Positions 436 to 55,159 of a stretch of DNA of 64,000 bases are shown in pieces (positions within the stretch are counted from its first letter, which is position 1; each line of letters begins with the position of its first letter). Under the pieces are notes generated by a model. That model had not been told where the DNA came from and ran no database searches. It saw only the letters and a list, made by a program, of their open reading frames with translations. The stretch is from Nepenthes gracilis (Eukaryota > Streptophyta > Magnoliopsida > Caryophyllales > Nepenthaceae), in assembly GCA_033239525.1 (NCBI GenBank), contig BSYO01000033.1, forward strand, positions 13,922,901 through 13,986,900, given 5' to 3'. Both the position numbers and the translations under genes were made by a program.

Positions 436-481
436 TTAGTTTTTCTTAATTATTTCAACTCCGAAAGAAAATAGTCGTAGT

Positions 482-754: not shown

Positions 755-1039
755 TGTTACGTCTCGGGTCCGTGGTTGCCGTACTGATTAGAGAGCCTTC
801 AGATTCCCTAGCATGCGATGGCGTCAGGAGAAGGGTCCGGTCTCCGTCTCTTTGAACCTAGACCTGCACAACACAAACAACAAACAAGAGGTCAGAGGCC
901 GACGGGGGGTTGTCCCCCGTCGACACTCCGACGCTCAAGTCAGATATCTTCCGCAATAAACGGAGGAATGCATGCATAAGATGCGAGAATGAGGGGAGTG
1001 TGAGAGGGATGTGATTAGAGGCTTAGCTCCATGAATGCG

Positions 1040-1400
1040 CCCGGCAGAGGGGCGGCTTACCTGTATGCCCGCGGAGGGTGACTTGGAGTGCGCCCGGCAG
1101 AGGGGTGGCTTATAGTTGTGCCCGCGAAGGGCTGCTTCGAGATGTGCCCGTAGAGGGGCGGCTTAAAGGTGCGCCCGTGGAGGGCGGCTTATAGGTGCGC
1201 CCGCAGAGGGGCGGCTTAGAGGTGCGCCCGCGAAGGGTGGCTTATAGGTGCGCCCGCAGAGGGGCGGCTTATAGGTGCCCCCGTAGAGGGGAGGCTTATA
1301 GGTGCCCCTGCAGAGGGGCGGCTTATAGGTGCGACCACGGAGGGCGGCTTGGAGTGCGCCCGGCAAAGGGGCGGCTTATAATTGCGCCCACGGAGGGCGA
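1040..1400. repeat. GC-rich minisatellite, ~27-bp unit
   Basis: About a dozen diverged copies of a unit built on GTGCGCCCGCAGAGGGGCGG plus CTTATA. It lies inside LTR L1. Arginine-rich or proline-rich peptides read through it on either strand but are products of the repeat. A faint relative (GCGGCTT in a similar context) appears in LTR K near 26,540. Confidence 0.85.
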
Positions 1401-1499
1401 CTTTAAGAAGAAGAACTAAATGAAACTAGTAAGTAAACATTCTTGTTACCTGAGCGGAGGACCAACTCTTGGACCACGAGCTCTTGGCTATGGGATAGA

Positions 1500-1940
1500 G
1501 GGATCGTGACTCCAAGACAGAGGGTTGAAGGCCTCATGGTTGGCGGAGGGCTGAGGGCCTCCGAATGGTGGAGGGTTTATGGCCTCCGGACGAGAGGAGG
1601 GCTGAGGGCCTCCAGGTGGCGAAGGGCCAAAGGCCTCTGTGCCTCCAGGATGGAGGACTGAGGGCCTCCGTGCCGGCCAAGGGCCGAGGGCCTCCGAATT
1701 GTAGGAGGGTCGTGGGCCTCCGTGCCTCCTAGAAGAAGGAGAGCTCTATGCCTCCTGGATGGAGGATTAAGGGCCTCTAGACAGTAGGAGGGCCGAGGGC
1801 CTCGTGGTGGCAGAGGGCTGAGGGCCTCCGGACTATAGGAGGGCCCAGGACCTCTTGGCAACAGAGGGTTGAGGGCCTCAAACGGGCGGAGAGCCAAGGG
1901 GCCTCCTGGATGAGAGGAGAGTCGGAGATCTCCTAACTGC
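1500..1940. repeat. Irregular GAGGGCCTCC minisatellite
   Basis: Repeated GAGGGCCTCC/G cores at ~20-40 bp spacing, still within LTR L1. GGGCCTCC and GGAGG are partly self-complementary, so the stretch could form many small hairpins in RNA. No gene is seen. Confidence 0.75.
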
Positions 1941-2171
1941 CAGCTTGCTCTCATTGGAGATCGGTTAGCAACGACTATGCCATTCTCCGAGCTTTATGGA
2001 GCTTTTTCGAGCTTCTCCAACTTGTCCTTCAATGCTTGAGGATGCTTGTTTTTATAGTGGAGTTTGCAGATGTATTGTTTCTCAAAAAGCAATGTGGGAC
2101 TTTTAATTTGAAGTTGGATTGTGGGCTTGCTGCGGACCTGGCCAATTGGCCCAGGGTTAGTGGACCCATCA

Positions 2172-2650
2172 CTAGCCCCCCATGCTGGTGGCCAGAAGTC
2201 TGGGCTCCAGCATGTCCATGATGGGATGCCTTTCCTTGCTTTGAGGATCTCGTGGGAATAAAAACGTGAAAGAACGTGAAGGAGAGTTTGGCCGAATTGC
2301 GGACGAAAAACGTCCAGTTTGGTTAATTCTCGAGTACTGGTCAATTGAGTACCGACCGACCGTCCAGTAAATTCGGTGTGCGAATTGTTGACCGCCCCGG
2401 TCAATTCCGGGAGTGTCTTGTGTGGGCACTTGCCGGTTTGCCTGACAGAGTACGGCACGTGTCTCCCCTTTGGTTGGGCGGAGATCCTGGTCATATTGTC
2501 CTCTTGACCTGGATTCACTGACCGAAAAGTTTGGCCTTGGAGAATGGAAGGAACCAGATTGATGGTTGACCAACTTGGTTGACCACATCACTTGACCCGG
2601 AGAGCGAAATAGAGCCGTAAATATGGTTGTCAGATTTCATTGACCAATGC
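2172..2650 (+). promoter_or_regulatory. Polypurine tract (minus) and orphan aORF-type promoter region
   Basis: 2,172-2,181 is the polypurine tract of a minus-sense element (GGGGGGCTAG on the minus strand). The following DNA matches the region upstream of the aORFs elsewhere: a conserved stretch after the tract, TTGAC motifs near 2,340-2,400, a G-box (GGCACGTGTC at about 2,455) and the CTTTGGTTGGG stretch that follows it. The matching aORF itself is missing, replaced by the 66-bp repeat and a plus-strand gag. Confidence 0.6.
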
Positions 2651-3190
2651 GCTCAAATCCGAAGAGCAGTGCGGAGTCAAAAAAGCTGGCTGACCGGATC
2701 TGGTAACCAAAGTGCTTTGTTGATCGGAAAAGTTGACCGGCAAAGTACTCAAATCCGGAGAGCAGTTCTGAGCCGGAAATCTTTGTTGACCGGAAAAGTT
2801 GACCGGTGAAGTGCTCAAATCTAGAGAGCAGTTCTAAGCCGAAAATCTTTGTTGGCCGGAAAAGTTGACCGGTGAAGTGCTCAAATCCGGATAGCAGTTC
2901 TGAGCCGAAAATCTTTGTTGACCGAAAAAGTTGACCGGGGAAGTGCTCAAATACGGAGAGCAGTTCTGAGCCGAAAATCTTTGTTGACCGAAAAAGTTGA
3001 CCGGTGAAGTGCTCAAATTCGGAGAGCAGTTCTGAGCCGAAAATCTTTGTTGACCGGAAAAGTTGACCGGGGAAGTGCTCAAATCCGGAGAGCAGTTCTG
3101 AGCCGAAAATCTTTGTTGACCGGAAAAGTTGACCTATGAAGTGCTCAAATCCGGAGAGCAGTTCTGAGCCGGAAATCTTTATTAACCGGA
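2651..3190. repeat. 66-bp tandem repeat with paired TTGACCGG motifs
   Basis: About eight units begin near 2,651, 2,747, 2,812, 2,878, 2,944, 3,010, 3,076 and 3,142. Most units contain TTGACCGG(A)AAAAG followed by TTGACCGG, so two W-box cores in direct orientation 13 bp apart. The array ends ~40 bp before the gag start and occupies the place where a 5' leader would be. No LTR end or primer site is visible between it and gag. Confidence 0.9.
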
Positions 3191-3232
3191 AAACAATTCG
3201 GTGTTCTCTCTCTGTCACCTTCTGCTTCAACA

Positions 3233-4697
3233 ATGGTGAACACGAGAGCACAGGCTAGCGACCCCGCTAGAGATGCTGCTAACCCCGACCAGGACCATGC
3301 TGCTGATGTCCGGGTCAACGGGGCCACAGGCGAAGTTCCACCGCCTTACATTCAACAACTGGTGGAGCAGATGCAGGCCAACAATCGCCTGCTCCAACTG
3401 CTTTGTGCGCAGAAAGAACAACAACAACAAGCGGCTCCACCAACAGTCATTCCCACTCCTGCCACCAAAAAAGGTGGCGAGAGGAAGAAGAAGCCGACAA
3501 AGAGGCCCGAAAAAGTTGGAAACAATCTGGCTCCAGCGTCCTCCCACGTTCCTGGCCAGAACAGGCCAATGGAACGCTCCGGGAGTACGTGTCCAACAGA
3601 GAGCCCAGAAAGGAGAAATCCTCGATACTCTCAGGCGGAAGACCGGCACACAATCGGGAGAGAAGCCGGGATCGCCAGATCCACGGGAGGCGGCCGGACG
3701 GGCCGCCGAGCCTCTTTGGGACAAGACGGAGTTGAGGAATTTCCTCAACTCCAAGCGATCAGCAAACGCCACTCACGCCGATCCGCGAGTGGACCAAATC
3801 TGGAACCACGTGTTCCAGAATGACGAGCGCGCCGTCCACTGCCGTCCAAGTTTCAAATGCCGTCCCTTGACTTATACAATGGGGACAGTGAATCCGGTTG
3901 ACCACCTGGATCACTTCCGCACCCATCTAAGTCTACAAGGGCTAGAAGACTCTACGATGTGCCGCTACTTCCCGCTCACACTGAAGGGAGACGCTAGAAT
4001 CTGGTTTCATCATCTCCCTATAGGCACTATCAGCAGTTTCTGTGAACTCACGGATCTCTTCTTGGCTCAGTACGCTTCGAGCCGACGGGAAGAGAAGCAG
4101 CTGTGGCATCTCTCTCACATAAAGCAGAAACCGGGAGAGAACCCACAGCGCTTCCAGGATCGATTCGTGGCTGAGGCCAGAAGGATTCCCAGGATTACTG
4201 AGGAGATGAAGTTGGACAGCTTCATCTCAGCACTAACTTACGGAGATTTCTTTAAACACCTGGCACACAAGAACCCTTAGACTTTCCGTGAGGCAGAATC
4301 CATTACCAGGGCCTACGCTGCTGTAGAAGAGGCCAACGAGGCAAAACGTCCAGAATGGAAGGATCAGCCTCGGCCAATCCCTGGAGAAGGAAAAAGAAAG
4401 TTCGCGGGCGGAGAACACCCCTGCCAGAAACAGCGCCGGACTGGGCCCTCAGAACGCAGAGACTTTGGGCCCACCACTTTCACACCCTTGACAGACACAC
4501 GTTCCAATGTTCTAATGCAGATCCGTGGAGAAAAGTTTTTGAAGTGGCCAAAGACACTGAAAAAAGACGCTGGAAATCAGTCTAAGTACTGTGACTTCCA
4601 CCTCTCTGTTGGCCACTCAACCGAAGACTGTAAAACGCTGCAGAGGGAAATCGAAGACCTGATTCGCAGAGGACACCGAAAAGGCCAAGCAAATTAA
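3233..4697 (+). pseudogene. gag: Tat gag (element A), broken
   Basis: Gag is the capsid/nucleocapsid polyprotein of an LTR retrotransposon. It opens MVNTRAQAS, the same start as gag of element C (minus strand, 63,688). Then come a Q-rich and basic linker and the retrotransposon capsid domain around GDARIWFHHLP and FLAQYASSRREE (about 3,990-4,090). A degenerate knuckle-like motif (CDFHLSVGHSTEDC, about 4,590-4,630) is near the end. The reading frame changes around 3,690-3,720, and an in-frame TAG lies at 4,278-4,280. After the knuckle the frame runs into sequence that belongs just before integrase, so PR, RT and RNase H are absent. It cannot make a full Gag. Start chosen from identity with copy C. 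Confidence 0.85.
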
Positions 4698-5604
4698 AAG
4701 GACAGCTGGCTAGTACACAGTAGTTGATGGGCGACTGTATCGCCACGGATTCTCAACTCCGTATCTCCGCTGTCTATCTCCCGAGGAGGCTGACTACGCA
4801 CTGGGCGAAGTTCACCTCGGGATCTGTGGATCACACGTAGGCGGGGAAAACCTGGCCTTCAAAATTATGCGGCAGGGCTACTATTGGCCCTCGATGAAAA
4901 AGGACGCACTTGAGTTTGTAAAGAAGTGTGAGAGTTGCCAGCTTCATGACAACCTTCATCACCAGCCGTCCGCTGACGACCAAGTCCCTTTAGGCTCCGT
5001 GGCCCTTCGCGCAATGGGGGCTTGACATTCTCGGCCCATTTCCCATTGCCACGGGGCAAAGGAAGTTTATCATAGCGGGCATCGACTACTTCACTAAGTG
5101 GGTCGAGGCTGCCCCGCTTGCAAAGATCACAGAACACAATGCTCTGGAGTTCATTCGCCAAAGCATTGTCTGCAGATTTGGCGTCCCAGAGGTCGTGGTG
5201 GCTGACAACGGGACCTAATTTTTGGGAAAACGCTTCACCAAGTATTGCACCAGCCTTGGAATCAAGCTGGTCCACACTTGATGGCATACCCTGTGCCACG
5301 GGCGGTGGAGGTCACAAACCGTACACTACTCCACGGGTTAAAGACTAAGTTGGAGGACGCTGGGGTTGCCCGGTACTATAATAAAAAGGTGAAAGCCCGG
5401 CAATTCGACGTTGGGGACCTGGTCCTACGAGGCATCGAGGCCATAGGCAAGCTGGTCGACCGAAACAAACTCTCTCCCAACTAGGAGGGACCTTTTCTTG
5501 TCTCCGCCGTCCTGCGCAACGGAGCATGCAAACTCCGGGAACCAGACGGAAAGTTGGTCCCACGAACGTGGAACACAACCCACCTGAAGCGTTACTTCAA
5601 ATAA
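4698..5604 (+). pseudogene. Tat integrase remnant (element A)
   Basis: Integrase inserts the cDNA copy. Visible parts in order: a pre-integrase stretch (VDGRLYR, then YLRCLSPEEADYAL), the H-H-C-C zinc region (HLGICGSHVGG then KKCESCQLH, about 4,815-4,950), broken catalytic-core fragments, VEVTNRTLLHGLKTKLEDAG (about 5,307-5,366), and the C-terminal KVKARQFDVGDLVLRG. It ends at HLKRYFK near 5,604. Several frameshifts and stops occur. A deletion joins LKTKLEDAG directly to VARYYNKKV, removing about 80 residues present in copy C. Clearly non-functional. Confidence 0.85.
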
Positions 5605-6561: not shown

Positions 6562-8367
6562 CTACAAGGCTGGCGGACCACCCTGGTTATCTCGGGGCTT
6601 TCCCTGCAGGTCTTCCTTACGCTGCGCTGCGCGGTTTCTTTGGTTAATAAACTCTACTGGGAAGTCAGGAACGACCAACCGCGTGACGTGGCGTCCAATG
6701 TTGAGCCCATCCAACAGCTGGGCGTGTAGTGCGCCCCCGACCTCATGGAGGCTCATCCGAGTAGCCAGCTCACTCTCTACGGCGGCGGCACGATCTACGA
6801 GGCATTTGTTGCTCGCTTTCATTCGGTCATCCTCCTCCTTTAAGTGAGCAACCTCCGCCTTTAGCTCAGGAACCTCCGCCTTCAGCTTGGCGTTCTCTGT
6901 CTCCACGCCCGCCATGACAGCCTCAAGAGCAGCTGTCTGCTCACGGAGCTCTCCTCCTGTAAGGCGGCCAGCTTGGCATCTAGCAAGGCTATCTCAGCCT
7001 CCCAGTCTGCAATGATGCGTTCGCGCTGTTCCATTTCCCGGGAGATAGCTGAGGCCAATCTTCTTAGCTGCACAGGACCAAAGCAAAATGTGAGCTTGTA
7101 AACATAAGGAAGAAAGAAGTACGAGGGAGCCAATGTAGAATACATACCTCATAAGTCTTCCTGTAGGGCCTCGTAGGCCTGGCCCAGCTGGTGGTGGAAT
7201 CGGAGATGATGAGCCGGGAGCACCCCCCTGCGCTGAACACGCCGCTGCCTCATCCAAAATATGATCCAAAAGATCATCATCATCAGCGGCAGCGGCGGGC
7301 TCCTCTCTTGCAGCCTCGGGGGCATCCGCTAGTTTCCTACCCCTGGCAGCCCTTGGAGCAGCAGCTGGTGAATTGGCTCTCGACGACGGCTCTACAATAT
7401 AAACGTGTGAACCCTCGGGCACGTCGCGAGCTGGCTCCTCTGCAGATCCCATCCAGGCGGCGTCTAGAATCAACTTCCCCGCAGGCTGGGCCAGAATAAC
7501 CCCTCCGGCATCCACCGGCTTATCCTCAATGGACCTCTCCGCTCCAGAAGTGCTGCCGGGTCTGCCGCAGATCCCGGCAGCCACGAGATCAATCTGTGAA
7601 GAGGAAGATGAGGGTGTAGAAGTCACCCTCTCAGTAGCCTCCTCCGAGGACCTTGGTCGAATGATCAATTTCTTTGAGACCTCAGGACTCACCATTTTAA
7701 TCGGATGGTGCGGCTTCTGAACCGGTGACGGCGGTCCCCATTTTGCCTTCTTGGTCTCCGCACGGGAAACCAAGAAGTCTCTCTTGAATTCATCGGGATT
7801 GTCCCGTATGGCCTTGCTCAGCCATGCATGGGCAAAGGTCTCCGTCGCGGACGGTGTACCAAGGTACACCTCTGGAACCTTGCCCCAGTTCCGCGCAACG
7901 GGCCACTTCTCTCCCACCTTTATAAAGAAGAACCGGTTTTTTCAGTTCTTTAGGGAGTCGTGAATGGCCTTGTTTATTTTTATCCCCATACGGGGGCTGA
8001 GTGAAATCCACTCTGCCCCCTGGGCCACTTTGAATATAACCTTAAGGCCAGACATCCTAAACTTCTGGCCGAGCTTCCGGGCGAAAATGCATAAAGTATA
8101 AATATACCTCACCGCATTGGTATGAAGCTGGGCGATGGGTACTTGTAGGGCTGTCATGATCGACTCAAACTCCTCCGGCAATGGCAGGCGGAGGCTGCTC
8201 CTCAAATGAGCCTCATAAAAAGTAATATAGCCCTCCAGTGGACAAAAGGCTTTGTCGTCCTTGCCTGGGACCTTCCAGGCCATCTTTTTAGGGATGTTGA
8301 ACTCGACGCACAAAACCTTAATGTCATTCTCTCACAAATCGGATGGAAAATCCGCCACGGAAGCCAT
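6562..8367 (-). pseudogene. Tat antisense accessory gene (aORF), copy A
   Basis: This resembles the plant 'putative gypsy type transposon' family (PF04195), whose function is unknown. Exon 1 (8,367-7,148) opens MASVADFPSDL and carries the conserved N-terminal block (VEFNIPKKMAWKVPG, YITFYEAHLRS, VPIAQLHTNAVRYIYTLCIF), then FLVSRAETKKAKWGPP and an acidic, Ala/Pro-rich linker. A short intron follows (about 7,147-7,068; GT at the 5' end, GTGCAG at the 3' end). Exon 2 (7,067-6,562) is a coiled coil rich in K/E/A heptads ending near FINQRNRAAQRK. It runs opposite to gag-pol. Damage is light: a TGA at codon 12, a stop at SLKN, and a one-base deletion before the donor. Least damaged of the three copies. 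Confidence 0.75.
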
Positions 8368-8938
8368 GATCAGAAGAGCTTTAGGATTTTTGAAGGCACT
8401 TAGCTAAGAAACGAGAACAGAGAAGACGACGGTTTAAAGGCGTAATTGATTTCAAAATACGGAAGGAAAACTTAAGCGCCAAGCATGCAAAGGACACCGT
8501 CCGTCCTGCCATGCGTCACCTCCTCATTCGACCCTGCAAAAGGACGGATCTCTGGCGCATTTATGACTCGGATCTCCTCCCAACCAAAGGAAGACACGTG
8601 TCGTTTTCTGCCTTGCAGTTCGGCCAAAAGTTGACAAAAATCATTCCCAGAATTGGCCAAAGACAATCAACAATTCTGGTACTCCGGAATTGACCAGGAC
8701 GGTCAACAATTCTGGTACTCCGGAATTGACCAGGATGGTCAACAATTCTGGTACTCCAGAATTGACCAGAGCGGTCAACAATTTTGGTACTCTGGAATTG
8801 GCCAGAAACGGTCAACAATTCCGGTCAAGCCCTCCTTCACGCTTTTATAAATTTCCACATGATTCTCAAAACAAGAAAAAACGTCACATCATGAACATAC
8901 TGGAGGCCAGAAATCTGACCACCAGCATGGGGGGCTAG
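8368..8938 (-). promoter_or_regulatory. aORF A upstream region and polypurine tract
   Basis: Read on the minus strand toward aORF A: a polypurine tract of the plus-sense element (GGGGGGCTAG, plus strand, 8,929-8,938), a TATA-like TATAAAAG at about 8,843-8,852, the 36-bp TTGACC array, and a palindromic G-box (GACACGTGTC, 8,593-8,602). The same order is found before copy B. That these control aORF transcription is inferred from position and conservation. Confidence 0.55.
8665..8825. repeat. 36-bp inverted W-box repeat (copy A)
   Basis: About four units. Each unit is an imperfect hairpin: GGTCAACAATTCTGG, TACT, then CCGGAATTGACC. So each carries a TTGACC core at both ends, facing opposite ways. 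The mirrored copy is at about 12,395-12,530. Confidence 0.85.
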
Positions 8939-10981: not shown

Positions 10982-12281
10982 TGATGTGTACCTAGATCCG
11001 ACTTCGAACAGATTCGGATTCTTCTGGATGATGCGAATCGGCTCGGTTCACCGAGTACGAATCCTGCACACCACTAAAACGAACAAGAGGTCAGCGCTAA
11101 CGGCGGGAGGTAATCCCACCGAAAACACTCCGACGCTCAAGTCAGTAAAACAGCCTTCAATGGAAGGAACTGAAAATAGAGAGAGAAATGGGAGAGGGGA
11201 AGAGAGTGCTTTGTTCCAGATGTCAGAGAGGCGCAAGGCCTTTATCGTATCTGGATGGTGGTAAGGCAGAGAACGGGTGTAAAGACTCGTTTGTTGCCTT
11301 AGAGTTTGATTGTGTTTGAGAGTTTTGGCTGCCAGGAACCAGAGTCTGTTTCTCAGAGCGCTTAGGGTTTTTTAATCTCAATGAAAGCGTGTCCTGGATG
11401 GTGAATCCAGGGCCTCTTTTATGGAAAAGATGGTGATCCTCCTCCTTTGGAAGTAGTGATCGTTCCTGTGATCTGCTGCTAGCCTTCCTTTCGGAAGCTG
11501 ATGCTTGTTGCCCAATTGTGGAGGATTGTTTCCTTCTGAGGCGGCCAACTGCTTTCCAAGCTGGGTACCTTCCTTCTGTGCATGCTACCGTTGGAAATCC
11601 TGGGTTGGCAAAGATTAGGGGAAATCTGGCACCTTCCTTATGTGGGAGGCGCCAATATTACCAGTATATTTTTGGTGCCAGCTGGGATCGTGGAGTATCC
11701 TTGGAGAGTTGTTGTTGACCTTTTGATGATTCGTGGACCTAAATGGGTTAGGCCCGTTATTGTTGAAAAGGCTTCTTGGGGCCCAATGTGCAAAGTGTGG
11801 ACGGTCAACGCTCGGGTTGACCGTCTGCTTGCGTGCTGGCCGCCCTTATGGAAGGCATCCGTCGTCAGCCTCCAGGTGGGCTATGGGCCTGAGCGAGTCA
11901 GGCCCATTACTGTAGAAGAGCCTTATTTGGGCCCAACGTATAGGGAGCAGACGGTCAACGTCTGAGTTGACCATCAGTGCGTTGGCCGCCTTCATGGAGA
12001 ACAAAGGGAGAGCGGCTGGCGATCAACTGATGGGCTGTGGGTCATAACAGAATAGGCCCATCACCGTCGCAAAGCCTCTAGAGGCCTAACCAAACTGGTC
12101 AACGTTGAGTTGACCGTTTGTGAGTAAGTTGGCCGCCAAGATGGTCAACGTTGAAGTTGACCGTCTTGGGCTTTTCAGCTCCTGGGCCCGTCTTCTTACT
12201 GGGCCCTCAAAAATATTGACCGACCTTCCTAGGCTTCCGTTAACCTTTCTTTGGGCCAGCCCATTATTGGTGTACCCATCA
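10982..12281 (-). repeat. Tat LTR L3 (minus sense)
   Basis: Runs from TGATGTGTACC at 10,982 to CCCATCA at 12,281 (1,300 bp). The polypurine tract complement CTAGCCCCCC follows at once, and the primer-site motif precedes it. The U5 motif lies at 11,126-11,145. It is the inverted match of L2 and shares its internal TTGAC motifs (about 11,800-11,825, 11,950-11,970 and 12,100-12,160). It has both a 3' internal region (right) and a primer site (left), as an LTR shared by two tandem elements would. Confidence 0.85.
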
Positions 12282-12895
12282 CTAGCCCCCCATGCTGGTC
12301 GTCAGGTTTCTGGCCTCCAGTATATTCATGATGGGACGTTTTTTCTTGCTTTGAGAATCCTATGGAAGTTTATAAAAGCGTGAAGGAGGGCTTGACCGGA
12401 ATTGTTGACCGTTTCTGGGTCAATTCGGAGTACTAGAATTGTTGACCGTCTTTGGTCAATTCCGAAGTACCAAAATTGTTGACCGCCCTGGTCAATTTTT
12501 GAGTACTGCACTGTTGACCGCCCTTCGCCACTCGGGAATGATTTTTGCCTTTTGGGGCGGATCGCAAGGCGTAAAAATGACACGTGTCTTCCTTTGGTTG
12601 GGAGGAGATCCGGGTCATAAATGCGCCAGAGATCCGTCCTTTTACAGGGTCAAGTGGAGAGGCGACACGTGGTAATCCTGATGGTGTCATTAATGAGGGG
12701 TTTCGTGCTAGAGACCCGTCCTTTTGCTGGGTCCAATGAGGAGGTGACGCATGGCAGGACGGACGACGTCCTTTCCATGCTTGGCGCTTAAGTTTTCCTT
12801 CCGTTTTTTTGAAATCAATTACGCTCCCAACCTTCGTCTTCCTCATTCCGTTTCTCAACTAAGTCCTTCGAAGAAACCCTAAAGCTCTTCTGATC
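12282..12895 (+). promoter_or_regulatory. aORF B upstream region
   Basis: In order: TATAAAAG at 12,371-12,378; a TTGACC/GGTCAA hairpin array at about 12,395-12,530; a palindromic G-box GACACGTGTC at 12,579-12,588; a second CACGTG at 12,666-12,671; then a pyrimidine-rich leader and AAACCCTAAAG just before the ATG. Two G-boxes are also found before copy C, although the rest there has diverged. Promoter function is inferred. Confidence 0.55.
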
Positions 12896-14690
12896 ATGGC
12901 TTCCGTGGCGGCTTTTCCATCCGATTTGAGAGAGAATGACATCAAAGCTCTGTACGTCGAGTTCAATATCCCTAAAGAGATGGCCTGGAAGGTCCCAGGT
13001 AAGGACGACAAAGCCTTTTCTCCACCGGAGGGCTACATTACGGTTTACGAGGTTCATCTGAGGAGCGGCCTCCGCCTGCCTTTGCCGGAGGAGTTGGCGT
13101 CGATCATGACAGCTCTGTAAGTCCCCATTGCTCAGCTTCACGCCAATGCGGTGAGGTACATTTGTACTTTATGTATTTTTGCCTGAAAGCTTGACCAAAA
13201 GTTTAGGATGTCTGGCCTTAAGGTTATTTTTAAGGTGACCCAGGGGGCGGAGTGGATTTCACTCAGCCCCCGTGTGGAAATAAAAATAAATAAGGCCATC
13301 CACGACTCCCTGAAGAACTGGAAAAATCGGTTCTTCTTTGTAAATGTGGGGGAGAAATGGCCCCTTGCGAGGAACTAAGGTAAGGTTCCTGAGGTGCATC
13401 TGGGGCCGTCTGCGGCAAAGAGCTCCGCCTATGCCTGGCTGACCAAGGCAATACGGCAAAACCCCAATGAATTTAGGAGGGATTTTTTGGTTTCTCATGA
13501 GGAGACCAAGAAGGCTAAATGGGGACCGCCATCCCCGGTTCAGAAGCCGCACCCTCCGATTAAAATGATGAAACCTGAGGTCTCAAAGAAGTTGATAATC
13601 CGCCCAAGGTCCTTGGAGGAAGCTGCTGAGAGGGCCACTGCTACGCCCTCATCGTCTTCATCGTAAATTGACCTTGTGGCTGCCGGGATCTGCGGCGGAT
13701 CCGGCAGCACTTCTGGAGCGGAGAAATCCTTTGAGGACTGGTCGGCGGAGACCGGAGGAGTTATCCTGGCCCAGCCTGCGGTGGTTCCAGGTGCAGCCTG
13801 GATGGAGTCTGCCGCGGAGCCAACTCGCGACGTGCCCGAGGGTTCACGCACTTATATCGTGGAGCCGTCGATGAGAGCTGATTCACCAGTTGCTGCCCCG
13901 AGGGTAGCCAGGAGGAAGAAACCTGCCGCAGCTGCTCCAGAGGCTGCAAGAGAGGAGCCCGCCGCTGCCGTTGAGGATGATGAGCTCTTGGAGAGCATTC
14001 TGGATGAGGCAGCGGTGTGTTCGACGCGAGAGGAGGCTCCTGGTCCTCTGCCACCTGAGCCTGGTCTGGAGGCCAGGCCTAAGGGACCCACGAGGAAATT
14101 TTTGGAGGTATGATTCTTGACGATTGATTCCTCCTACCTTGTCCCTTCAAGGTTTCTAACTTGTCTTCTGTTCATTGTTTGTGCAGCCGTTGAAGGTTGC
14201 CTCCGCAATTTTTAAGGCAATGACGCAGCGTGATGAGGCACCGGCTGATAAGGAGGCAGAAATAGCCTGGCTGGATGCTAGGCTGGCCGCCTCAGGAGGG
14301 GAGTTACGTGAGCAGGCAGCTGCTCTCGAGGCTGTTATGGCGAGCGCGGTGGCAGAGAATGCCGGACTGAAGGCAAAGAACGCCGAGTTGAAGGCGGATG
14401 TTTCTCGCTTGAAGGAAGAGGATGATCGACTGAAAGTGAGTAACAAACGCCTCGCAGATCGAGCCGCCGCCGTAGAGAAAAAGTTGGCCTCTCGGATGAC
14501 TCCTCATGAGGTAGGGGGCGCACTGCACGCCCGGCTGTTGGAGGGGCTCAATATTGGATGTCGCGTTGCGCGGTTGATCGCTCCGGACTTTCCAGTGGAG
14601 TTTATCAATCAAAGAAACCGCGCAGCGCAACGCAAACAAGATCTGGAGGGAGAGCCCCGAGACAGCCAGGGTGGTCCGCCATCCCTGTAG
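12896..14690 (+). pseudogene. Tat antisense accessory gene (aORF), copy B
   Basis: Same gene as copy A, here on the plus strand and convergent with the integrase remnant. Exon 1 (12,896-14,107) opens MASVAAFPSDLREND and has the PF04195-like block (LYVEFNIPKEMAWKVPG, YITVYEVHLRSG), then FLVSHEETKKAKWGPP, a Ser run and an Ala/Glu/Pro linker. Intron 14,108-14,186 (79 nt, GT...CAG, phase 0). Exon 2 (14,187-14,690) starts PLKVASAIFKAM, is a long coiled coil, and ends GGPPSL. Exon 1 keeps one frame throughout but has four stops (13,118; about 13,184; 13,376; 13,664). Copy A has Q, R, W and Q at those places, so transitions explain all of them. Function unknown. Confidence 0.75.
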
Positions 14691-15239
14691 CCCTCTGTAT
14701 TTCTTTTGTTTTTTGAACCGTATGTAAATTGTAACATACTTTGTGAGTAATAAAATGGAAGCTCTTTTTCAGTCCGGTGTCCATTGCCCCCTTTTTTTTT
14801 GCTTTGTGTTTGTTTATATTGTTGCATTGGGCGGCCAACCTGGTTGGCCGGCGGCCGTTGCTTGGTCGCCTAAGGAGCTGAGCCCCCAGGCTTGGCAGGT
14901 GGTTGCATTAACCAACCCTGCGGTGCTGTCCAAGTGGAGACTCGGGCAGTCAGCGTTAGAGAAGGAACGCTTCTCGTTATTTCTTGATCATACTATCCTT
15001 TCGTCGAGAAGGTTAGTGCGTGAGATAGCCAACCTGGTTGGCTGGCTGCCTAAGGAGTAAGATCCTTAAGCTGGGCAGGCGGTTGTAAGAACCATCTTGG
15101 TGACGCCGTGCAAGTGACAACTTGGGCTGCCAGTGTTGGAGAAGAAGTGTTTCTCCTTTCGACCGTCGTTGACTGACGTTGCTGCTCCCCGAAAGGAGGT
15201 CGTCGCGTGTGCCATTCTTGCCCCCTAAGGTTTTCAGAC
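14691..15239 (+). terminator. aORF B downstream region with polyadenylation signal
   Basis: AATAAA lies at about 14,748, some 60 bp after the aORF stop, in a context shared with copies A and C (TTTGTGAGTAATAAAATGG). The remainder is non-coding and mirrors 6,041-6,500. Confidence 0.6.
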
Positions 15240-15672: not shown

Positions 15673-16343
15673 TTATTGGAAGTAACGCTTCAGGTGGGTT
15701 GCGTTCCACGTTCGTGGGACCAACTTTCCGTCCTGGTTCCGGAGTTTGTATGCTCCGTTGTGCAGGACGGCAGAGACAAGAAAAGGTCCCTCCCAGTTGG
15801 GATAGAGCTTGTTTCGGCCGGCCAGCTTGCCTGTGGCCTCGATGCCTCGTAGGACCAGGTCCCCAACGTCGAATTGCCGGGCTTTCACCTTTTTATTGTA
15901 GTACCGGGCAACTCGGTGTTGGTATGCTGCTGTCCGTATTCTGGCGGCGTCGCGGGCCTCTCTAGCAAGTGAACTTCGCCCAGCGCATAGTTAGCCTCCT
16001 CGGGAGATAGACAGCGAAGATACGGAGTTGAGTATCCACGGCGATATAGTCGCCCATCAACTATTGTGTACCAGCCAGCTGTCTTTTTAATTTGCTTGGC
16101 CTTTTCGGTGTCCTCTGGGAGTGATCCGTCGGCCAAGTATCTAAGGTAAGGCGTCATCCAGTTTTCCGTCTCGGAAATCTGCACTGCCTCTTGTTTCTCT
16201 ATGCTCGGAGCATTCAGGGGTCTCCCGCATGTCCTCGAATATTGCTCTGGGTTCTCGGCAGCAGCTGCTCTAGCCCGCCGGTCTGCCTTCCAATTTTCGG
16301 CTCGAGGAACGTGAACCAGTCTGGAATTGACCAGGGTCCGCAT
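15673..16343 (-). pseudogene. Tat aRNH end plus integrase remnant (B half)
   Basis: Read on the minus strand: the end of the second, Tat-type RNase H (VNSRLVHVPRAENWKADRRA), a connector (EKQEAVQISETENWMTPYL), pre-integrase (DTEKAKQIKKTAGWYTIVDG, YLRCLSPEEANYAL), then GEVHL joined directly to LERPATPP/AREARDAA, then the integrase C-terminus (KVKARQFDVGDLVLRG to HLKRYF). The H-H-C-C finger and the whole catalytic core between GEVHL and AREARDAA are deleted. The right end at about 16,343 is cut by chromovirus D. Confidence 0.85.
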
Positions 16344-16427
16344 GATTCATTTATTATTTTATTTTAAAGCCAAGGATTATGGGCTGACGGCGGCTTATGA
16401 AGTAAAATAAGGCCGGGCCGTCACAGT

Positions 16428-17630: not shown

Positions 17631-20600
17631 GTCGTAGAAGGTACACTTTCTATCTGTGGCACTTCTAGTTATGTACTATTTGACTCTGGATCTACTCACT
17701 CTTTCGTGTCCCATGAAGTTATTGACTCTGGATCTACTCTGGATCTTACGACCCTTCCTCAAGTTATTGACTGCCCATTGATGGTCGCCTCACCCATGGG
17801 GTCATCCGTAATCTTAAATGTAGTATATCCAGAATGCCCAATAGAATTTAATGAATACATGATGCCTGTTAACCTAGTTTTGCTGAAAGTGAAAGACTTC
17901 GATGCAAATTTGGGAATGGATTGGTTAGCCAGGTATCATGCCAAGATTGATTGTTTCCGAAAAAGGGTGGAATTCGCCATTCCTGGAAACAAGTCATTCT
18001 ACATTCAAGGAGTCCGGCATAAAGAAGCATCTTGCTTCATTTCGGCTCTTCATACCAGACACTTGATGGGTGAAGGGTGTCAAGCTTATCTAGCCTTCGC
18101 CAATGTGACCACTGAAAGTCAAGAATCTCTGGCTAAAGAGATTCCTGTGGTAGGGAATTCGAAGACATATTCCCTGATGAATTGCCTGGACTACCACCCC
18201 AACGAGAGTTGGAATTTGGAGTAGAATTGATATCAGGATCAGCACCGATATCCAAAGTACCGTATCGGATGGCACCGGCCGAACTCAAAGAATTGAAACA
18301 GCAATTGCAGGAATTGTTAGATAAAGGTTTCATTCGGCCAAGCGTGTCACCATGGGGAGCACCGGTTCTCTTTGTCAGAAAGAAGGACGGGACCATGAGA
18401 TTATGCGTGGATTATCGCGAACTGAACAAAATTACCGCCAAGAATAAATATCCTCTGACAAGGATTGATGATCTCCTTGACCAATTACATGGAACTTGCG
18501 TATTTTCAAAAATCGACATTAGATCAGGGTATCATCAACCTCGGATCAGAAAAGAGGATATAGCAAAGACGGCGTTCCGGACTAAATATGGGCATTATGA
18601 ATTTATAGTGATGCCTTTTGGGTTGACTAATGCCCCGGCCGTCTTTATAGACTTGATGAATCGAATTTTTCAACCATACCTGGACAAGTTTGTGATCGTC
18701 TTTATTGACGACATTCTTGTGTATTCGAAAAGCCATGAGGAGCATGAGGTGTATTTATGGACTACGCTCCAGATTCTTAGGGAGCATCAGCTGTTCGCCA
18801 AATTGAAAAAGTGCGAATTTTGGTTAAAGGAAGTGGGATTCCTTGGCCACGTTATCTCTAAAGAAGGGATTTTCGTCGACCCTAAGAAAGTGGAAGCAGT
18901 GGTAAATTGGAACCGGCCAACCTCTATGACCGAAGTGCGAAGTTTCTTAGGCTTAGTTAGATACTATAGGCAGTTCGTGGAAAACTTCTCCCAAATCGCT
19001 TCGCCACTCACGTAGTTAACCAAGAAGGATGCCAGATTTGAGTGGACCAAGGATTGTGAAGAGAGTTTCTAGACACTTAAAGACCGGTTAACTTCTGCTC
19101 TGGTCCTAACCATCCCAAATGAATCAGGAGGACTGATTGTTTATTGCGATACTTCAAAGATTGGGTTAGGCTGTGTTTTAATGCAACACGGAATGGTAAT
19201 TGCCTATGGGTCACGGCAGTTGAAAGATCATGAAAGAAATTATCCAACTCACGATCTGAAACTAGCCGTAGTAGTGTTTGCATTGAAAATCTGGGGGCAT
19301 TACCTGTATGGGGAGAGATTCTTGGTCTACTACGATCATAAGAGTCTAAAGTATTTATTCTCCTAGAAGGAACTGAACATGAGGCAGAGAAGGTGAATTG
19401 AATTTCTGAAAGACTATGATTGTGAAATTCGGTACGAACCAGGAAAGGCCAACGTAGTTGCCGATGCACTAAGTAGACAACCTGGTGTTCTGGCCAGAAC
19501 GTAAGTCAAGCAAATGAAAATGCTGGACTATCTCATGTACTATGATGTCCAACGTTATGTGCAAGGAAAGCGGATGATCTTGGCATACCTTCAAGTTCAA
19601 CCAGAGGTGATAAATGAGGAAAGGGATGTCAGGCGGATGATTCTTTCCTTGTAAAGATCATGAGTGAACTGGACAAAACATCCCGAAGCAATTTTCACGT
19701 TATGTCGAATGGAGCATTAAGATTTAGAAATCGGTTATGTGTGCCGGACAACAAAGAATTAAAGGAGAAAATTCTTAAGGAGGCCCATCGATCCCGTTAT
19801 ACGATTCACCCATGAGCCAATAAGATGTATCAGGGTCTGAAGAAAATATTTTGGTGGAGGAATATGAAGAGGGATATTGCAGCTTATGTGGAAAAGTGTC
19901 TTGTGTGCCAACAAGTAAAGGCCGAAAGAAAGCAGCTGTCTGGATTATTGCAGCCAATGACATTTCCAGGTTGAAAATGGGAAGACATTGCCATGGATTT
20001 TGTAACCGGTCTGCCAAGGATGCCAAGGAAACATGATGCCATTTGGGTGATTGTCAATCGGCTAACCAAGTCAGCCCATTTTCTGGCGATCCAGACGACT
20101 TACTCCCGTGATAAATTGGCCCAACTGTATGTGAACGAGGTTGTTAGACTTCATGGTGTACCTGTTTCTATCGTGTCGGATAGAGACCCTCGCTTTGTTT
20201 CAAAGTTCTGGAAAAGTCTACACAAAGGGTTAGGGACAGAATTAAAATTCAGTACCGCTTTTCATCCCCAAACTGACGGCCAATCAGAACGAACTATCCA
20301 GATACTTGAGGATATGTTAAGAGCCTCGGTTTTAGAGATGAAATGGGCTTGGGATAATTCATTAACTCTAGCAGAGTTTGCTTATAATAACAGTTACCAG
20401 GCCAACATTGGCATGGCTCCTTTTGAAGCCTTGTATGGGAAAAAATGTAGGTCACCGATCCACTGGGAGGAACACGAAAATAAAAGGATTTTGGGTCCTG
20501 ACATTATTAAAGAGACGGTAGAAAAGATAAAGTTAGTACACGAAAATCTCAGAGTAGCCCGGAGTAGACAAAAGAACTATGCAGACCGGAGGAGATCTGC

Positions 20601-21041
20601 ATTAGAATTTGAAAAAGGCGATTTTGTATTCCTAAAGGTATCGCCATCCAAAGGAAAATACAGATTCGGGGTAAAAGGGAAGCTGAAGCCACGATTTATT
20701 GGTCCTTTTGAAATTCTAAAAAGGATCGGAGAAGTGCTTACAGACTTGCACTACCTCTAAACTTGGCAGAAGTACACGACGTGTTCCATGTATCAATGCT
20801 TCGGAAGTATGTCTATGACCCTACGCATGTAATCGAGTATGAACCTTTGACAATCAACAAGGACTTGTCCTATGTAGAGGAACCGGTGAAAATCTTGGAT
20901 CGAAGGGAACAGAGGCTACGCACCAAATCAATCGCTCTAATAAAGGTGCTCTGGAAGAATCACACACCCAAAGAGGCAACTTGGAAACGAGAGGAAGAGA
21001 TTCGGAACAAATACCCCTATTTATTTTCTCGAGGTCAGTAA
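17631..21041 (+). pseudogene. pol: pol of chromovirus D (PR-RT-RNase H-IN-chromodomain), broken
   Basis: Domains in order: aspartic protease (LFDSGSTHSFVS, about 17,677-17,712; the DSGST coding segment is repeated at 17,722); RT (18,182-19,015) with [22 protein letters not shown] and catalytic [10 protein letters not shown]; RNase H (about 19,140-19,500: [29 protein letters not shown]); the integrase zinc region (about 19,760-19,920); the DDE core with MDFVTGLP, VSDRDPRFVS and DGQSERTIQ; and the C-terminal LIKVLWKNHTPKEATWKREE, typical of the Tekay/Del chromodomain end. Frame breaks lie near 18,155, 19,650, 19,980 and 20,745, with stops near 19,014 and 19,363. Catalytic residues are mostly kept, so decay is moderate. 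Confidence 0.92.
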
Positions 21042-23360: not shown

Positions 23361-23445
23361 TTATTAAATGTCCGTTGGTTAAGTATGAAGGCTAAAAAAC
23401 TTGCTGTTTGCGTTGTACTCTTATATTCTTCTGGACCTAACAAAC

Positions 23446-25170
23446 ATGTGGAGTGTCCGACTATCTTCTATCCACGACATCCAGCCCAAAGCCGTTACGC
23501 TTCTCCGTTCCCCTTCCTTCATCGTCGGCCTCTCCACCGCCGGTGCCTCAACCAAGTTAGCCACCGACTTGGACGAAAATCCTTTTACAGCGCACCCATC
23601 CCACATCCATCTCTCCTTCGTCCACTCCAAAGACCAACTCCCCAAATCTTACACCATCACTCCCCCAATCAAACCATGGCCGAAAACACTCTCCCGGAAA
23701 CGCCTTGTCTCAATGGTCAGTCGCCAACAGAACCTCGATCTCGCCCACCAAATCTTCGACTTCGCCGGTAAATTTCACCCCAAATTCTCCCACAACTTCG
23801 AAACCTATGCCGCCATCATTACCCGCCTCGCGCGGGCACGTCAATTTCATCACGTCGAATCACTGCTATTCCAATTGCGAAATTCCCAAATCAAATGCGT
23901 CGAAACCATATTCGTTATTCTAATTCGGAACTACGGCCTCGCTTCTCGCCCAAAGGATGCCGTCCGCACATTCTTGCAAATGGGCGATTTCAGCGTGAAT
24001 CGGTCGGTTAAATCCCTTAACTGTTTATTGAATGCTTTGGTTCAAAATAAGAAGTATGATTGGGTCCATTTGGTTTTCAAGAATAGTCGGAAGAATTTCG
24101 GTATCATACCGAATATTTTTACTGGTAATATCTTAGTGAAAGCCCTCTGCGGAAACGGTGATATGAATGGTGCACTGAGGGTGCTCGACGAAATGCCTGG
24201 CATGGGAATGGTGCCTAATGTGGTGACTTATACTACGATTTTAGGTGGTTATGTTGGGAAAGGAGATATGGCCCGTGCGAAGATGGTATTCGGGGAGATA
24301 TTGGACAGAGGGTGGGTGCCTGATGCTACTACGTATACGATTTTGATGGATGGGCATTGTAAGAAAGGGAAGCTGATTGATGCAGTTAAGGTTATGGATG
24401 AGATGGAGGAAAATGGGGTTGAGCCGAATGAAGTTACCTATGGGATTATGATTGAGGCTTATTGTAAAGCGAAGAAATCAGGTGAGGCGTTGAATTTGCT
24501 CGGTGATATGCTCGAGAAGAAGTACATACCTAGTTCTGTATTGTGTTGTAAGGTGGTTGATATTTTGTGCGAGGAAGGGAAGGTTGAGGATGCTTGTCAG
24601 CTGTGGAAGAAGCTGTTGAAGAAGAATGTTACTCCAGATAATATCATCTCGAGCGCTCTTATTTATTGGCTCTGTAAGAAGGGGAAGATTTCGGAAGCTA
24701 AGAAGTTGTTTGATGAGTTTGAAAGGAGTTCGGTTCCCAATGTGTTGACCTATAATACACTTATAGCCGGGCTGTGTGAGAGTGGACAGCTGTGCGAGGC
24801 AGGGAGGTTGTGGGATGACATGGTAGAAAATGGGTGCACTCCTAATGCGTTTACCTATAACATGTTTATTAAAGGGTTTTGTAAGGTAGGTAGCCCCAAA
24901 GAAGGCATTAGAGTTCTCGAGGAAATGCTAGAAAAGGGATTCATGCCAATTGAATCAACTTACTCAATTTTGATTGATGGGCTTTCTGGTTCAGGATCAC
25001 TGACAGAAATCATGGAGTTGCTGTTTATGGTTACTAATAATGGAAGAAGAGTTGATGCAGATTTTTGGAGAGTCCTTCTCAACAAGGCTGTTGGCAATGT
25101 AGACACCGGTGCAGTCCTCAATAATATTGTTAGGGGATTCCACCTGACGAGTTATCATGCAGAATCCTGA
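23446..25170 (+). CDS. P-class pentatricopeptide repeat (PPR) protein
   Basis: PPR proteins bind organellar RNA and act in its processing, editing or translation. This is an intact single-exon gene of ~574 residues. I chose the ATG opening MWSVRLSSIHDIQPKAV; an in-frame ATG 45 bp upstream (23,401) gives a hydrophobic N-terminus and is a less likely alternative. The N-terminal ~80 residues are Ser/Arg/Lys-rich with few acidic residues, fitting a mitochondrial or plastid presequence. About twelve 35-residue repeats follow (e.g. VVTYTTILGGYVGKGDMARA, ATTYTILMDGHCKKGKLIDA), with no E or DYW tail, so P class. From memory it resembles Arabidopsis At5g16420; this was not verified. No stops or frameshifts. 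It is the only apparently functional host gene here. Confidence 0.93.
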   Translation: MWSVRLSSIHDIQPKAVTLLRSPSFIVGLSTAGASTKLATDLDENPFTAHPSHIHLSFVHSKDQLPKSYTITPPIKPWPKTLSRKRLVSMVSRQQNLDLAHQIFDFAGKFHPKFSHNFETYAAIITRLARARQFHHVESLLFQLRNSQIKCVETIFVILIRNYGLASRPKDAVRTFLQMGDFSVNRSVKSLNCLLNALVQNKKYDWVHLVFKNSRKNFGIIPNIFTGNILVKALCGNGDMNGALRVLDEMPGMGMVPNVVTYTTILGGYVGKGDMARAKMVFGEILDRGWVPDATTYTILMDGHCKKGKLIDAVKVMDEMEENGVEPNEVTYGIMIEAYCKAKKSGEALNLLGDMLEKKYIPSSVLCCKVVDILCEEGKVEDACQLWKKLLKKNVTPDNIISSALIYWLCKKGKISEAKKLFDEFERSSVPNVLTYNTLIAGLCESGQLCEAGRLWDDMVENGCTPNAFTYNMFIKGFCKVGSPKEGIRVLEEMLEKGFMPIESTYSILIDGLSGSGSLTEIMELLFMVTNNGRRVDADFWRVLLNKAVGNVDTGAVLNNIVRGFHLTSYHAES

Positions 25171-27111: not shown

Positions 27112-27116
27112 TGCTT
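27112..27116. other. Candidate target-site duplication of element J (left)
   Basis: TGCTT directly before the TG of the J 5' LTR. The same five bases occur at 36,704-36,708, directly after the 3' LTR if that ends ...CATAG. Confidence 0.65.
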
Positions 27117-52613: not shown

Positions 52614-53273
52614 CTAACCCCCCATATTAGTGGTCTAAATTCTGACCTCCAGCATATCCATGGTGGGTCATGTGACTTGGCGTCCATCAAGATCCATTGA
52701 CTGAAACCGTTTACCGTTTAAGATAACCTGGTGTACTCTAGCAAAAGGAGTTGACCGGATGCATTGACCGTTTAGGCTAAAATCTGGAAACCTGCTGAAG
52801 GAAATATTGACCAAATTTGTCATCCATCCTGACCAAAATTCTGAGAACTATTGAAGAAAATGTTAATCGGATTCGTTGACCGTCAAGGCCAAGATCTGGA
52901 GAACCTGTTGAAGGAATTGTTGACTGGATCAGTTGACCATCAAAGCCAAGATCTGGAGAACCTATGGGAGTGGAGTAACACACCATCATTAGCTGTTCTG
53001 TCAGATGAAAAGGGGCCACGTGTCTGCACACGGTGAGTTGAATATCCCGATAATTATTGCACCAGGGGATCTAATTCGTCAGTGCCCGCTCAGGAGGCGC
53101 CACGTGGCAGCAATGATGGCACCTGTTTATGAGACGGTTACTTTGGATGGCATTCACACTGCCTTTAAGTTGTCCGTCCGTTTCCATTTTGAATTTCTCA
53201 CGCTCTTCTTTATCTTCCCCGAGTGAGAATTTTTTTTAAGTGTTGCACCATCTTCTTCCTTACTTCCATATTC
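52614..53273 (+). promoter_or_regulatory. aORF C upstream region
   Basis: Polypurine complement at 52,614-52,622, then a TTGACCG-rich stretch (about 52,690-52,945), then two G-boxes: GCCACGTGTC at 53,015-53,024 and GCCACGTGGC at 53,099-53,108. The same two-G-box order occurs before copy B although the surrounding sequence has diverged strongly. Promoter role inferred. Confidence 0.5.
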
Positions 53274-55159
53274 ATGGCCTCCGTTATATAGATAGCTTCG
53301 ATCCTTACAGAGACTGACCTGAAGGAGTTGTACGTGGAGTACAACATTCCTAAAGCATTCGTTCCCTGGGTTCCTAGCAAGGAGGGCAGGGCGTGCTCAC
53401 CGCCTGAAGGTTATGTCACCATTTATGAGGCCCATTTGAGGAGTGGGCTGTGCCTTTCCATTCCTAACGAGTTACTGCAGATTGTGACCTCCCTCAAAGT
53501 CCCTATCGCACAACTCCACGCTAATGTTGTGCGGTACCTGTACACGTTCTGCATTTTCTTCGTCAGCATTCAAAGAAGTTGATGGTGGAGATGGTGAGGG
53601 TCCTGTTCAAGTTCAACCAGGGAGTAGAGTAGATCTCCCTAGCCCCACGTGGTGTCCTCCAGATTAGCATCACCATTTATGACTCCTTGAAGAACTAAAA
53701 GAACAGGTTCTTCTTTGTTTACGTGGACGGATCCTAGCCGTTGGCCAATGAATGGGGCAAGGTGCCTGAGGTTTACATCGAGACTCCCCCTGAGGCAGAG
53801 ACGGAGTCCTTAGAGTGGCTCTTCAAGTTGGTGGAGAAACACCATTTAGTTTTTGGAGAGACTACTTGGTCTCTCATGATGATGCCAAAAAGGCCAAGTG
53901 GAGGCCTCCATTACAAGAGCAAAAGGCGATGAAGGCCTCCAAGAGGAGGAGGATCGGGGCTCTGACAATCAGGGAGCCAACCGGTGATGGTTCTCCCATT
54001 AGTCCAACAATGACGGTGGCAACAGTAAGGCCTTCTTTGTTCTCCTCCACCGATCCCAAGAGTGTGCTAATTGGCTAGCTTGCCGGAGTGGGGGATAGCT
54101 CCGGCGTATGTGGCGAAGGTTTCGCCATTGAGCTTTTTAGGGAGAGACTGTACCATGCTGCCAGCTACATTGTTCTTGCCCTCCCGTAGTCGAAGCACTT
54201 GATGCGGTTGGAGCTTTCCTTGGAGCCTATTATTGAGCATGCCGCTGATCCATCGGAGGAAATTCCTACTGGGGAACCCAGGGATGCGCTTGTTGAGCCT
54301 CCTGTTTGTCTAGCCGTCGCGCCATCTGACAAACCTACTCCTGAGGAAATTCAGGAGGTGCCAAGAGCGCCAACCGCCAGAGAGCCTCAACCGGCGGTTG
54401 AGGTTAGAGTAGAGATCGTTGAGGAGCCTGCACAGGCCGTGGAAAGGCTGGACCTACTGTTCCAGAGATTTCGGGGATGGACGACCTTATGGCGGAGCTG
54501 CTGGAGGAGTCTGCGACGGAAGCCACTGTTAGGTCTGCTCAAGAGGGTTCCATTCCTAGCCCTCCACCGTCTGAGCCAAGATCTCGTGCCAGGCTAGTGT
54601 TTCCAGCACGTAGGATTTGGCAGGTGAATTTTTTGTGACCTGCCTTTCCTCTTAGTTTAACTACTGCTAACACTTATAATTTTTGCAAAAAGAAAAAGTC
54701 TTCGACGCTATTATTAAGGCGATTGGTCAGCGAGACCTGACGATCCCTGATAGGGATAGGCTAATTGCTTGGCTCGATGATGAGCTAAAGACAATGAGGG
54801 CGGAGCACCAAGAGGATGCAGTTACTCTAGGATTCGTGCTGGCCAACCTAGAGGCGGAGATCAACCAGTTTAGAGAGAAGAATGCTAGCTATAAAGATGC
54901 CATGGTGCCGGGTCTAGTTGAGGATAACGACAGACTTAAGGAGGAAAATGCCCATCTAAAAGAAGAGCCTAACCGGACTACACTGCACCTTGACGAGCTT
55001 GTGGGACAGATGGCCACTCTAGAGAATCAATTGGCCACTCGTATCCGTCCCCATGAGGTTGAGAACATGCTGTTGACGCGGTTATGGGAGGGGATCAACA
55101 TTAGTTGGCGTATAACCCGGCTAATTGATCCCAACTTTCCAGTCGAATGCCACATCTAG
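53274..55159 (+). pseudogene. Tat antisense accessory gene (aORF), copy C
   Basis: Opens MASVI followed by a stop, then TDLKELYVEYNIPKAFVPWV, YVTIYEAHLRSGLCL and VPIAQLHANVVRYLYTFCIF, matching copies A and B; PF04195-like. After several frameshifts and stops come the KKAKWRPPL block and a Glu/Pro-rich linker. Exon 1 ends RRIWQ at 54,623. The intron begins GTGAAT at 54,624 and ends at about 54,688; the acceptor reads GCAA instead of GCAG, so splicing there is probably lost. Exon 2 (KVFDAIIKAIGQRDL onward) is the coiled coil, ending at 55,159. More diverged than A and B. Confidence 0.7.

Follow-up and report, generated by a model that had tools for sequence, protein, structure and literature searches.

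The 64-kb window, by which we mean the whole stretch of Nepenthes gracilis DNA analysed here, contains three copies (A, B and C) of an accessory gene that lies antisense to gag-pol and downstream of the integrase (Table 1). In element A, both gag (PF03732, E 6.7e-11) and integrase-like frames recognized by eye are found on the plus strand and the accessory gene on the minus strand, while in elements B and C the integrase-like frames, likewise identified by eye, are on the minus strand and the accessory genes on the plus strand. The RNase H end and integrase start of element B were recognized by motif and similarity, and this segment gave no Pfam match at E <= 0.01. Judged by strand and by place after the integrase, the genes are open reading frames antisense to gag-pol, situated between pol and the 3' LTR, as the first-pass annotation of this DNA had described them. 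That annotation had further claimed a single intron of 65-80 nt at the same place in all copies and an in-phase joining of the two exons of copy B (phase 0), and both agree with the features listed here.

Table 1. Accessory-gene copies and associated features, numbered from the first letter of the window.
Feature	Position	Strand	Basis or remark
Copy A, whole gene	6,562-8,367	-	sequence reading
Copy A, exon 1	7148..8367	-	2 nonsense codons, frame break near donor
Copy A, intron	7068..7147	-	80 nt, GT-AG
Copy A, exon 2	6562..7067	-	one frameshift
Upstream of copy A, tandem array of 36-nt units with TTGACC/GGTCAA pairs	8667..8825	-	
gag of element A, gag-pol strand	3240..4277	+	PF03732
Copy B, whole gene	12,896-14,690	+	sequence reading
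Copy B, exon 1: TRP28-like N block, then proline/alanine-rich linker	12896..14107	+	404 codons, one frame, 4 nonsense codons
Copy B, intron	14108..14186	+	79 nt, GT...CTAAC...AG, phase 0; found at this place in 49 other loci
Copy B, exon 2: zipper-like coiled coil, then a helical C-terminal part that is conserved	14187..14690	+	stop included
AATAAA 3' of copy B	14749..14754	+	
Region upstream of B, with a TATA box at -525 followed by TTGACC/GGTCAA pairs	12371..12519	+	36-37-nt tandem units
Further GGTCAA...TTGACC pairs, between the B gene and its 3' LTR side	11803..12162	+	starts 13-14 nt apart
Element B, gag-pol strand: end of RNase H and start of integrase	15888..16346	-	motif and similarity
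Copy C, whole gene	53,274-55,159	+	sequence reading
Copy C, exon 1	53274..54623	+	nonsense codons and frameshifts
Copy C, intron position	54624..54688	+	65 nt, GT donor, AA acceptor
Copy C, exon 2	54689..55159	+	open
TTGACY cluster upstream of copy C	52697..52938	+	

The three window copies are all damaged, and none of them shows the complete transcription unit initially claimed. The in-frame stops of copy B exon 1 lie at 13118, 13184, 13376 and 13664, copy A carries frame breaks in addition to its nonsense codons, and exon 1 of copy C is broken by stops and frameshifts whose number varies with the alignment, next to an intron that ends in AA. Two stops that an aligned count assigned to exon 2 of copy C proved to be a gap artefact, as the frame itself is open. 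Two of the checks proposed along with these claims were carried out, a search for intact copies elsewhere in the genome and a comparison of dN/dS among copies, and both turned out in favour of a gene: among 49 further aligned copies, four are free of stops and frameshifts, relative to B, in both exons, and GT-AG ends are present in all 49.

Codon-level comparisons point to selection on the protein. Between B and A, differences accumulate at third codon positions in both exon 1 (47/51/112 at positions 1/2/3) and exon 2 (31/27/56), while the intron (12/9/13) has no codon periodicity and the flanks give 20/23/26 and 11/6/10. In the antisense frame, dN/dS of this pair is 0.13 for the N-terminal block (12896-13375; bootstrap 0.06-0.25), 0.34 for the linker (13376-14107; 0.25-0.52) and 0.26 for exon 2 (0.17-0.41). 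The other frames of the exons yield 0.74-2.13, with the exception of one phase on the gag-pol strand (0.27-0.53), and the flanks range from 0.32 to 1.36. We read the low values of this gag-pol-strand phase as a mirror of the wobble position, which weakens the contrast between frames and leaves it strong, yet not absolute.

The same trend was found genome-wide in 1164-1176 pairs of 49 copies (C and two others, L017 and L039, were left out). With rising dS, dN/dS of the N-terminal block falls from 0.47 through 0.28, 0.20, 0.17 and 0.15 to 0.13, that of the linker from 0.59 to 0.34 and that of exon 2 from 0.68 to 0.21. The youngest bins are small (3, 6 and 13 pairs), and these figures exclude the pairs beyond the last bin (dS 1.2), which number 374 of 1164 for the N block and 5 of 1176 for the linker. 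Shifted-frame controls stay between 1.35 and 0.94 and between 1.08 and 0.8. Since dN/dS falls with age and the shifted frame remains near 1, purifying selection acted on the protein, in both exons, before the copies decayed, which is the pattern that a selected gene undergoing neutral decay after insertion would be predicted to leave.

Such a history leaves room for the view that the gene is a relic, once under selection and now dispensable, so that current multiplication of the elements would be served by copies supplied in trans, or by none at all. Apart from the broken state of all window copies, a stop at the Trp codon 13319 speaks for this view: it is common to 19 of 52 copies, some of them grouped in small clades. 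A single inherited event was ruled out as its origin, as at least 11 changes are needed on the tree (from which L017 and L039 were omitted), and with the stop recurring in this way some copies may therefore have multiplied while carrying it. Against a relic stand the four copies that are open in both exons, and the younger pairs (dS 0.1-0.2), for which dN/dS is still below 1 (0.28, 0.44 and 0.36). We regard the relic explanation as unlikely.

The two exons of this gene are separated by a stretch with GT-AG ends at a conserved, frame-keeping position, as expected of a spliceosomal intron. We examined its ends in several sets of loci: in 50 B-like exon-2 loci (B included; taken as the top 30 and the following 20 from 150 scored matches in 10,166 candidates, and hence the least decayed ones), donor GT and acceptor AG are present in 50/50 each. 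A C-like set, comprising C and 20 of 150 matches that were read around the junction (taken from the listed matches, not at random), has GT in 20/21 and, at the acceptor, AG in 15/21, AA in 5/21 and AT in 1/21. Seventeen loci matched by the gene model P0009, again out of the matches listed and not random, have GT in 17/17 and AG in 15/17. With copy A included, this amounts to a GT donor in 88 and an AG acceptor in 81 of 89 copies, counts that are not independent trials because the copies are kin. The length of the stretch is 72-82 nt over 52 aligned copies save C, and a CTRAY branch-like site is found in 41 of 51 copies and in 20 of the 21 C-like ones. In 51 copies the base of B is kept at a mean of 0.81 in the interior of the intron versus 1.0 at the four splice-site bases, and B and A are 83% identical in exon 1 and 77% in exon 2, compared with 55% in the intron; the phase in copy A is broken by an indel near the donor. 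By codon and splice-site tests on genome-wide copies, exons and intron are more than chance would be expected to produce, and the accessory gene is probably spliced at this GT-AG junction.

Alternatively, the two blocks might be separate genes, or two cistrons of one antisense RNA, in which case the "intron" would be a short spacer that is never removed. An ORF-finder survey indeed lists TRP28 and Smc-like coiled-coil matches as separate domains of antisense ORFs (PMC11963269), and in six of our copies the stretch measures 78 nt, keeps the frame and is free of stops, so that the whole could be read through. Conserved donor, acceptor and branch-like sites would hardly be expected of such a spacer, however, nor would four N. 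gracilis gene models (P0002, P0004, P0006 and P0009) that join the exons at the junction, P0002 three residues further on, and the missing codon periodicity of the stretch also speaks against this view. In 39 of 51 copies a reading frame left unspliced ends at a stop within the intron, in 38 of these at the second intron codon, so that most copies would need splicing to connect block and coil, unlike the 12 of 51 whose introns have no in-frame stop. We consider two separate genes or cistrons quite unlikely and continue with a single gene that is probably spliced.

The gene models are predictions, and unreliable ones, because the start of exon 2 is missing from P0005, which is not joined there, and because a coding block is dropped in both P0005 and P0006. 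This block corresponds to about 13117-13206 in B, where B has GTAAGT, and a second intron in exon 1 was rejected as a gene-model artefact, the TAA at this place occurring only in B and L016 out of 52 copies. Intron-less copies, which would prove past splicing, were sought with a 20-nt exon-exon pattern at up to 3 mismatches (303 matches versus 53 for a control pattern), and none was confirmed among the roughly 100 matches listed. No exact site is among these. Apart from five, they are unspliced acceptors in front of exon 2, and those five resemble neither exon except in short words that match by chance.

The N-terminal block had been described as PF04195-like, and this likeness is weak. No match to PF04195 (Transposase_28) was obtained at E <= 1 for any of 10 pieces of A, B and C, and a relative, P0011, reaches only E 0.035 and 14.8 bits, below the cut-off of 26.2. 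We call the block TRP28-like and not TRP28 because the gathering score is not reached by the window copies. Five other places of the N. gracilis genome (L001-L005) do pass the cut-off; an intron-like stretch lies at a like place in L001 and L005, none could be placed in L002, and exon 2 is too decayed in all three to judge the junction. A structural model of the block (P0007) is weak overall (pLDDT 52.9), is helical with moderate confidence at residues 13-116, and found no PDB match at E <= 0.001.

Exon 2 is modelled as one helix over residues 19-103, followed by two helices, with block mean pLDDT values of 90-98 over residues 41-100. In the best heptad register, 11 of 12 d positions are hydrophobic, while this is true of only 5 of 12 a positions, three others being Asn and the rest E, D or G; Asn at a positions occurs in dimeric leucine zippers. 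The coiled coil that was proposed for exon 2 is supported by the predicted long helix and the d positions, whereas the a positions fit less well. Matches to bZIP_1 remain below the cut-off (19.4 bits for P0005 versus 27.6, and 15.6 for a piece of A) and cover profile positions 23-62 and 26-62 of 64, mainly the zipper. In three protein searches we retrieved 21 N. gracilis proteins and four weak others, two of these from Brassica cretica (E 0.0045-0.7), and one scan of viral contigs gave none.

Both ends of the gene are accompanied by candidate regulatory signals. Within 900 nt upstream of the start codon, 11 of 11 copies contain 10-16 sites of the motif TTGACY, the W-box core, compared with shuffle means of 0.9-1.7, a largest shuffle count of 7 and 0.78 sites per kb in gene bodies; these copies are what remained after 12 of 20 long-flank loci were dropped, whose start region was not found or lay too near the end. 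The sites are ordered, with starts of TTGACC and a following GGTCAA 11 nt apart in 17 cases and the reverse order at 25 nt in 13 cases and at 14 nt in 10. In A and B the pairs sit in tandem units of 36-37 nt, and the number of sites therefore overstates the number of independent events. The arrays are not a trait of all TRP28 families, as L001-L005 have 0-2 sites. Six of the 11 copies have a TATA box upstream. On the other side, the AATAAA said to follow the stop by about 60-150 bp begins 58 nt (A), 58 nt (B) and 147 nt (C) after it, and the signal occurs within 200 nt of the stop in 29 of 50 exon-2 loci (at 40-80 nt in 27 of these), compared with a background of 0.157 in the window. Of the separate functional gene that the first-pass annotation suggested, a separate, selected and probably spliced gene is supported by the intact copies and by dN/dS, but none of the window copies shows a complete transcription unit.

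Antisense TRP28 accessory genes of Retand/Tat elements have already been described (PMC11963269, PMC7264820). Such ORFs are characteristic of Retand elements, where they occur in 97% of clusters, and DNA binding has been predicted for them, their function being unknown (Vicient 2025, PMC11963269). The genes described here resemble them in their antisense orientation, their position between pol and the 3' LTR and their TRP28-like N-terminal block, and also in coiled-coil ("Smc") matches, reported for some of them, in tandem repeats nearby and in a proposed regulatory role (PMC11963269). They differ in that the window copies fall below the PF04195 cut-off, and in that the survey relied on an ORF finder, while block and coil here look like two exons of one gene (PMC11963269). 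According to a review, gene23 of maize Grande is likewise an antisense gene in a long 3' internal region, and its own promoter and nuclear protein have been reported (PMC7264820). For the accessory gene of N. gracilis, the separate promoter claimed in the first-pass annotation is putative and is suggested by this maize example; its sequence signs are the TATA boxes and the TTGACY arrays.

Two further systems offer partial parallels, namely Ogre, which belongs to the wider Tat group, and HBZ of HTLV, which has a leucine zipper and a spliced mRNA. In Ogre, as here, a plant Ty3/gypsy element contains a spliceosomal intron, but it is the polyprotein strand that carries it, between gag-prot and RT, and only some of the transcripts have it removed (PMC6317226), whereas ours belongs to an antisense accessory gene. 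The likeness to HBZ, an antisense retroelement gene with a nuclear protein (PMC11963269), is one of layout only.

That the antisense RNA and not a protein matters, by pairing with the genomic RNA and feeding small-RNA silencing or copy control, is very unlikely, even though the literature proposes such roles for plant elements (PMC7264820) and describes them in yeast Ty1 (PMC12786077), and even though sense genomic RNA would span the region that holds the gene, because selection acts on amino acids in the antisense frame, most strongly in the N-terminal block, and a pure RNA role predicts no bias of codon positions.

Taken as a whole, it is rather probable that this is an accessory gene belonging to a Ty3/gypsy family of Retand/Tat type in Nepenthes gracilis, and that the gene is antisense, has an internal promoter, is spliced once and encodes a nuclear dimeric regulator. 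Its antisense transcript would start from a promoter between the start codon and the 3' LTR, be spliced once in phase 0 and be polyadenylated before the end of the integrase. The product would comprise about 570 residues, opening with a helical TRP28-like N-terminal block and ending in a zipper-like coil and its conserved helical tail, with a linker between them that is probably disordered. Most likely this protein regulates the element from within the nucleus and as a dimer, the location being suggested by analogy to Grande GENE23 and the dimer by the heptad register, and the inverted TTGACC arrays could be the sites of action of the protein itself or of host WRKY factors. As the retrotransposon cycle suggests, the intron would survive replication because the genomic RNA is complementary to the antisense transcript and carries its splice signals in reverse, so that reverse transcription would copy the intron in each round.

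More speculatively, and with little confidence, we can picture the gene as a switch encoded by the element. A zipper dimer made only from the spliced antisense RNA would bind inverted TTGACC pairs at two places, its own promoter and the leader that precedes gag, and would thereby decide how much antisense (regulator) and how much sense (genomic) transcription takes place. RNA left unspliced, which in most copies meets a stop just past exon 1, would give rise to a competitor without zipper. The antisense placement would then preserve not only the intron but also this two-isoform control through reverse transcription.

The accessory gene is known in kind, while two features look new, namely the conserved intron between block and coil, seen in 89 copies, and the TTGACC arrays with their paired sites. 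The word "intron" is absent from the main text of PMC11963269 and has 0 counts in PMC7264820, and the parts of these two articles considered here make no mention of a conserved intron, of a zipper-like register in exon 2 or of inverted TTGACC arrays. We found no prior report of an intron in Retand-type antisense genes in the open-access literature, where an earlier report may nevertheless exist. A review of 2020 asks for study of antisense and spliced transcripts (PMC7264820). If block and coil are two exons of one protein, surveys based on ORF finders may have split the gene and filed its second half as unrelated "Smc"-like ORFs. The gene would also represent a clear case of a retroelement that keeps an intron by orienting it the wrong way for its own replication, and with the right cDNA the role of the protein would become testable.

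Element A, host to one of the three window copies of the two-exon gene antisense to gag-pol, is, judging from its sequence, internally deleted, because gag and the integrase-like frames leave no space between them for protease, RT and RNase H, and because a counterpart of its 3' LTR region, sought in window positions 1-2149, gave no match. Ahead of its gag lies a segment (2149-2273) that is 78% alike to window positions 12259-12387, part of the sequence upstream of the antisense gene. It is followed by 66-nt tandem repeats that carry TTGACC sites at 13-nt spacing, which recurs upstream of the antisense gene. The pre-gag stretch may represent either a recombinant or a shared control region.

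Among the other features, a further gypsy element sits downstream of the integrase-like frame of element B and is seemingly nested. The long open frame looks by eye like a pentatricopeptide-repeat host gene, and the duplicated blocks match in pieces at 80-87% identity.

Features of the window (positions in nt)
Feature	Position	Strand	Details
Stretch resembling antisense-gene upstream region, with 66-nt tandem repeats	2149-3259		upstream of element A gag
Element A, gag to integrase-like frames	3240-5484		
Further gypsy element	17631-20760	+	RVT_1, E 2.8e-35; SH3_Tf2-1, E 1.4e-11
Long open frame	23389-25170		593 aa; judged by eye
Direct duplication	27116-31224 and 32875-36702		~5.5 kb apart

The tryptophan codon at 13319 of copy B is a stop in 19 of the 52 aligned copies of the antisense gene, versus six copies at the runner-up site for shared stops, and at least 11 changes are required on the tree of copies. 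This excess may reflect either a hotspot or partial inheritance.

The intron measures 78 nt in seven copies (L019, L033, L041, L042, L045, L053 and L054), and the reading frame is therefore kept across it. Since it also contains no in-frame stop in six of these, the exception being L042, unspliced RNA of the six could likewise be translated straight through, in an exitron-like manner.
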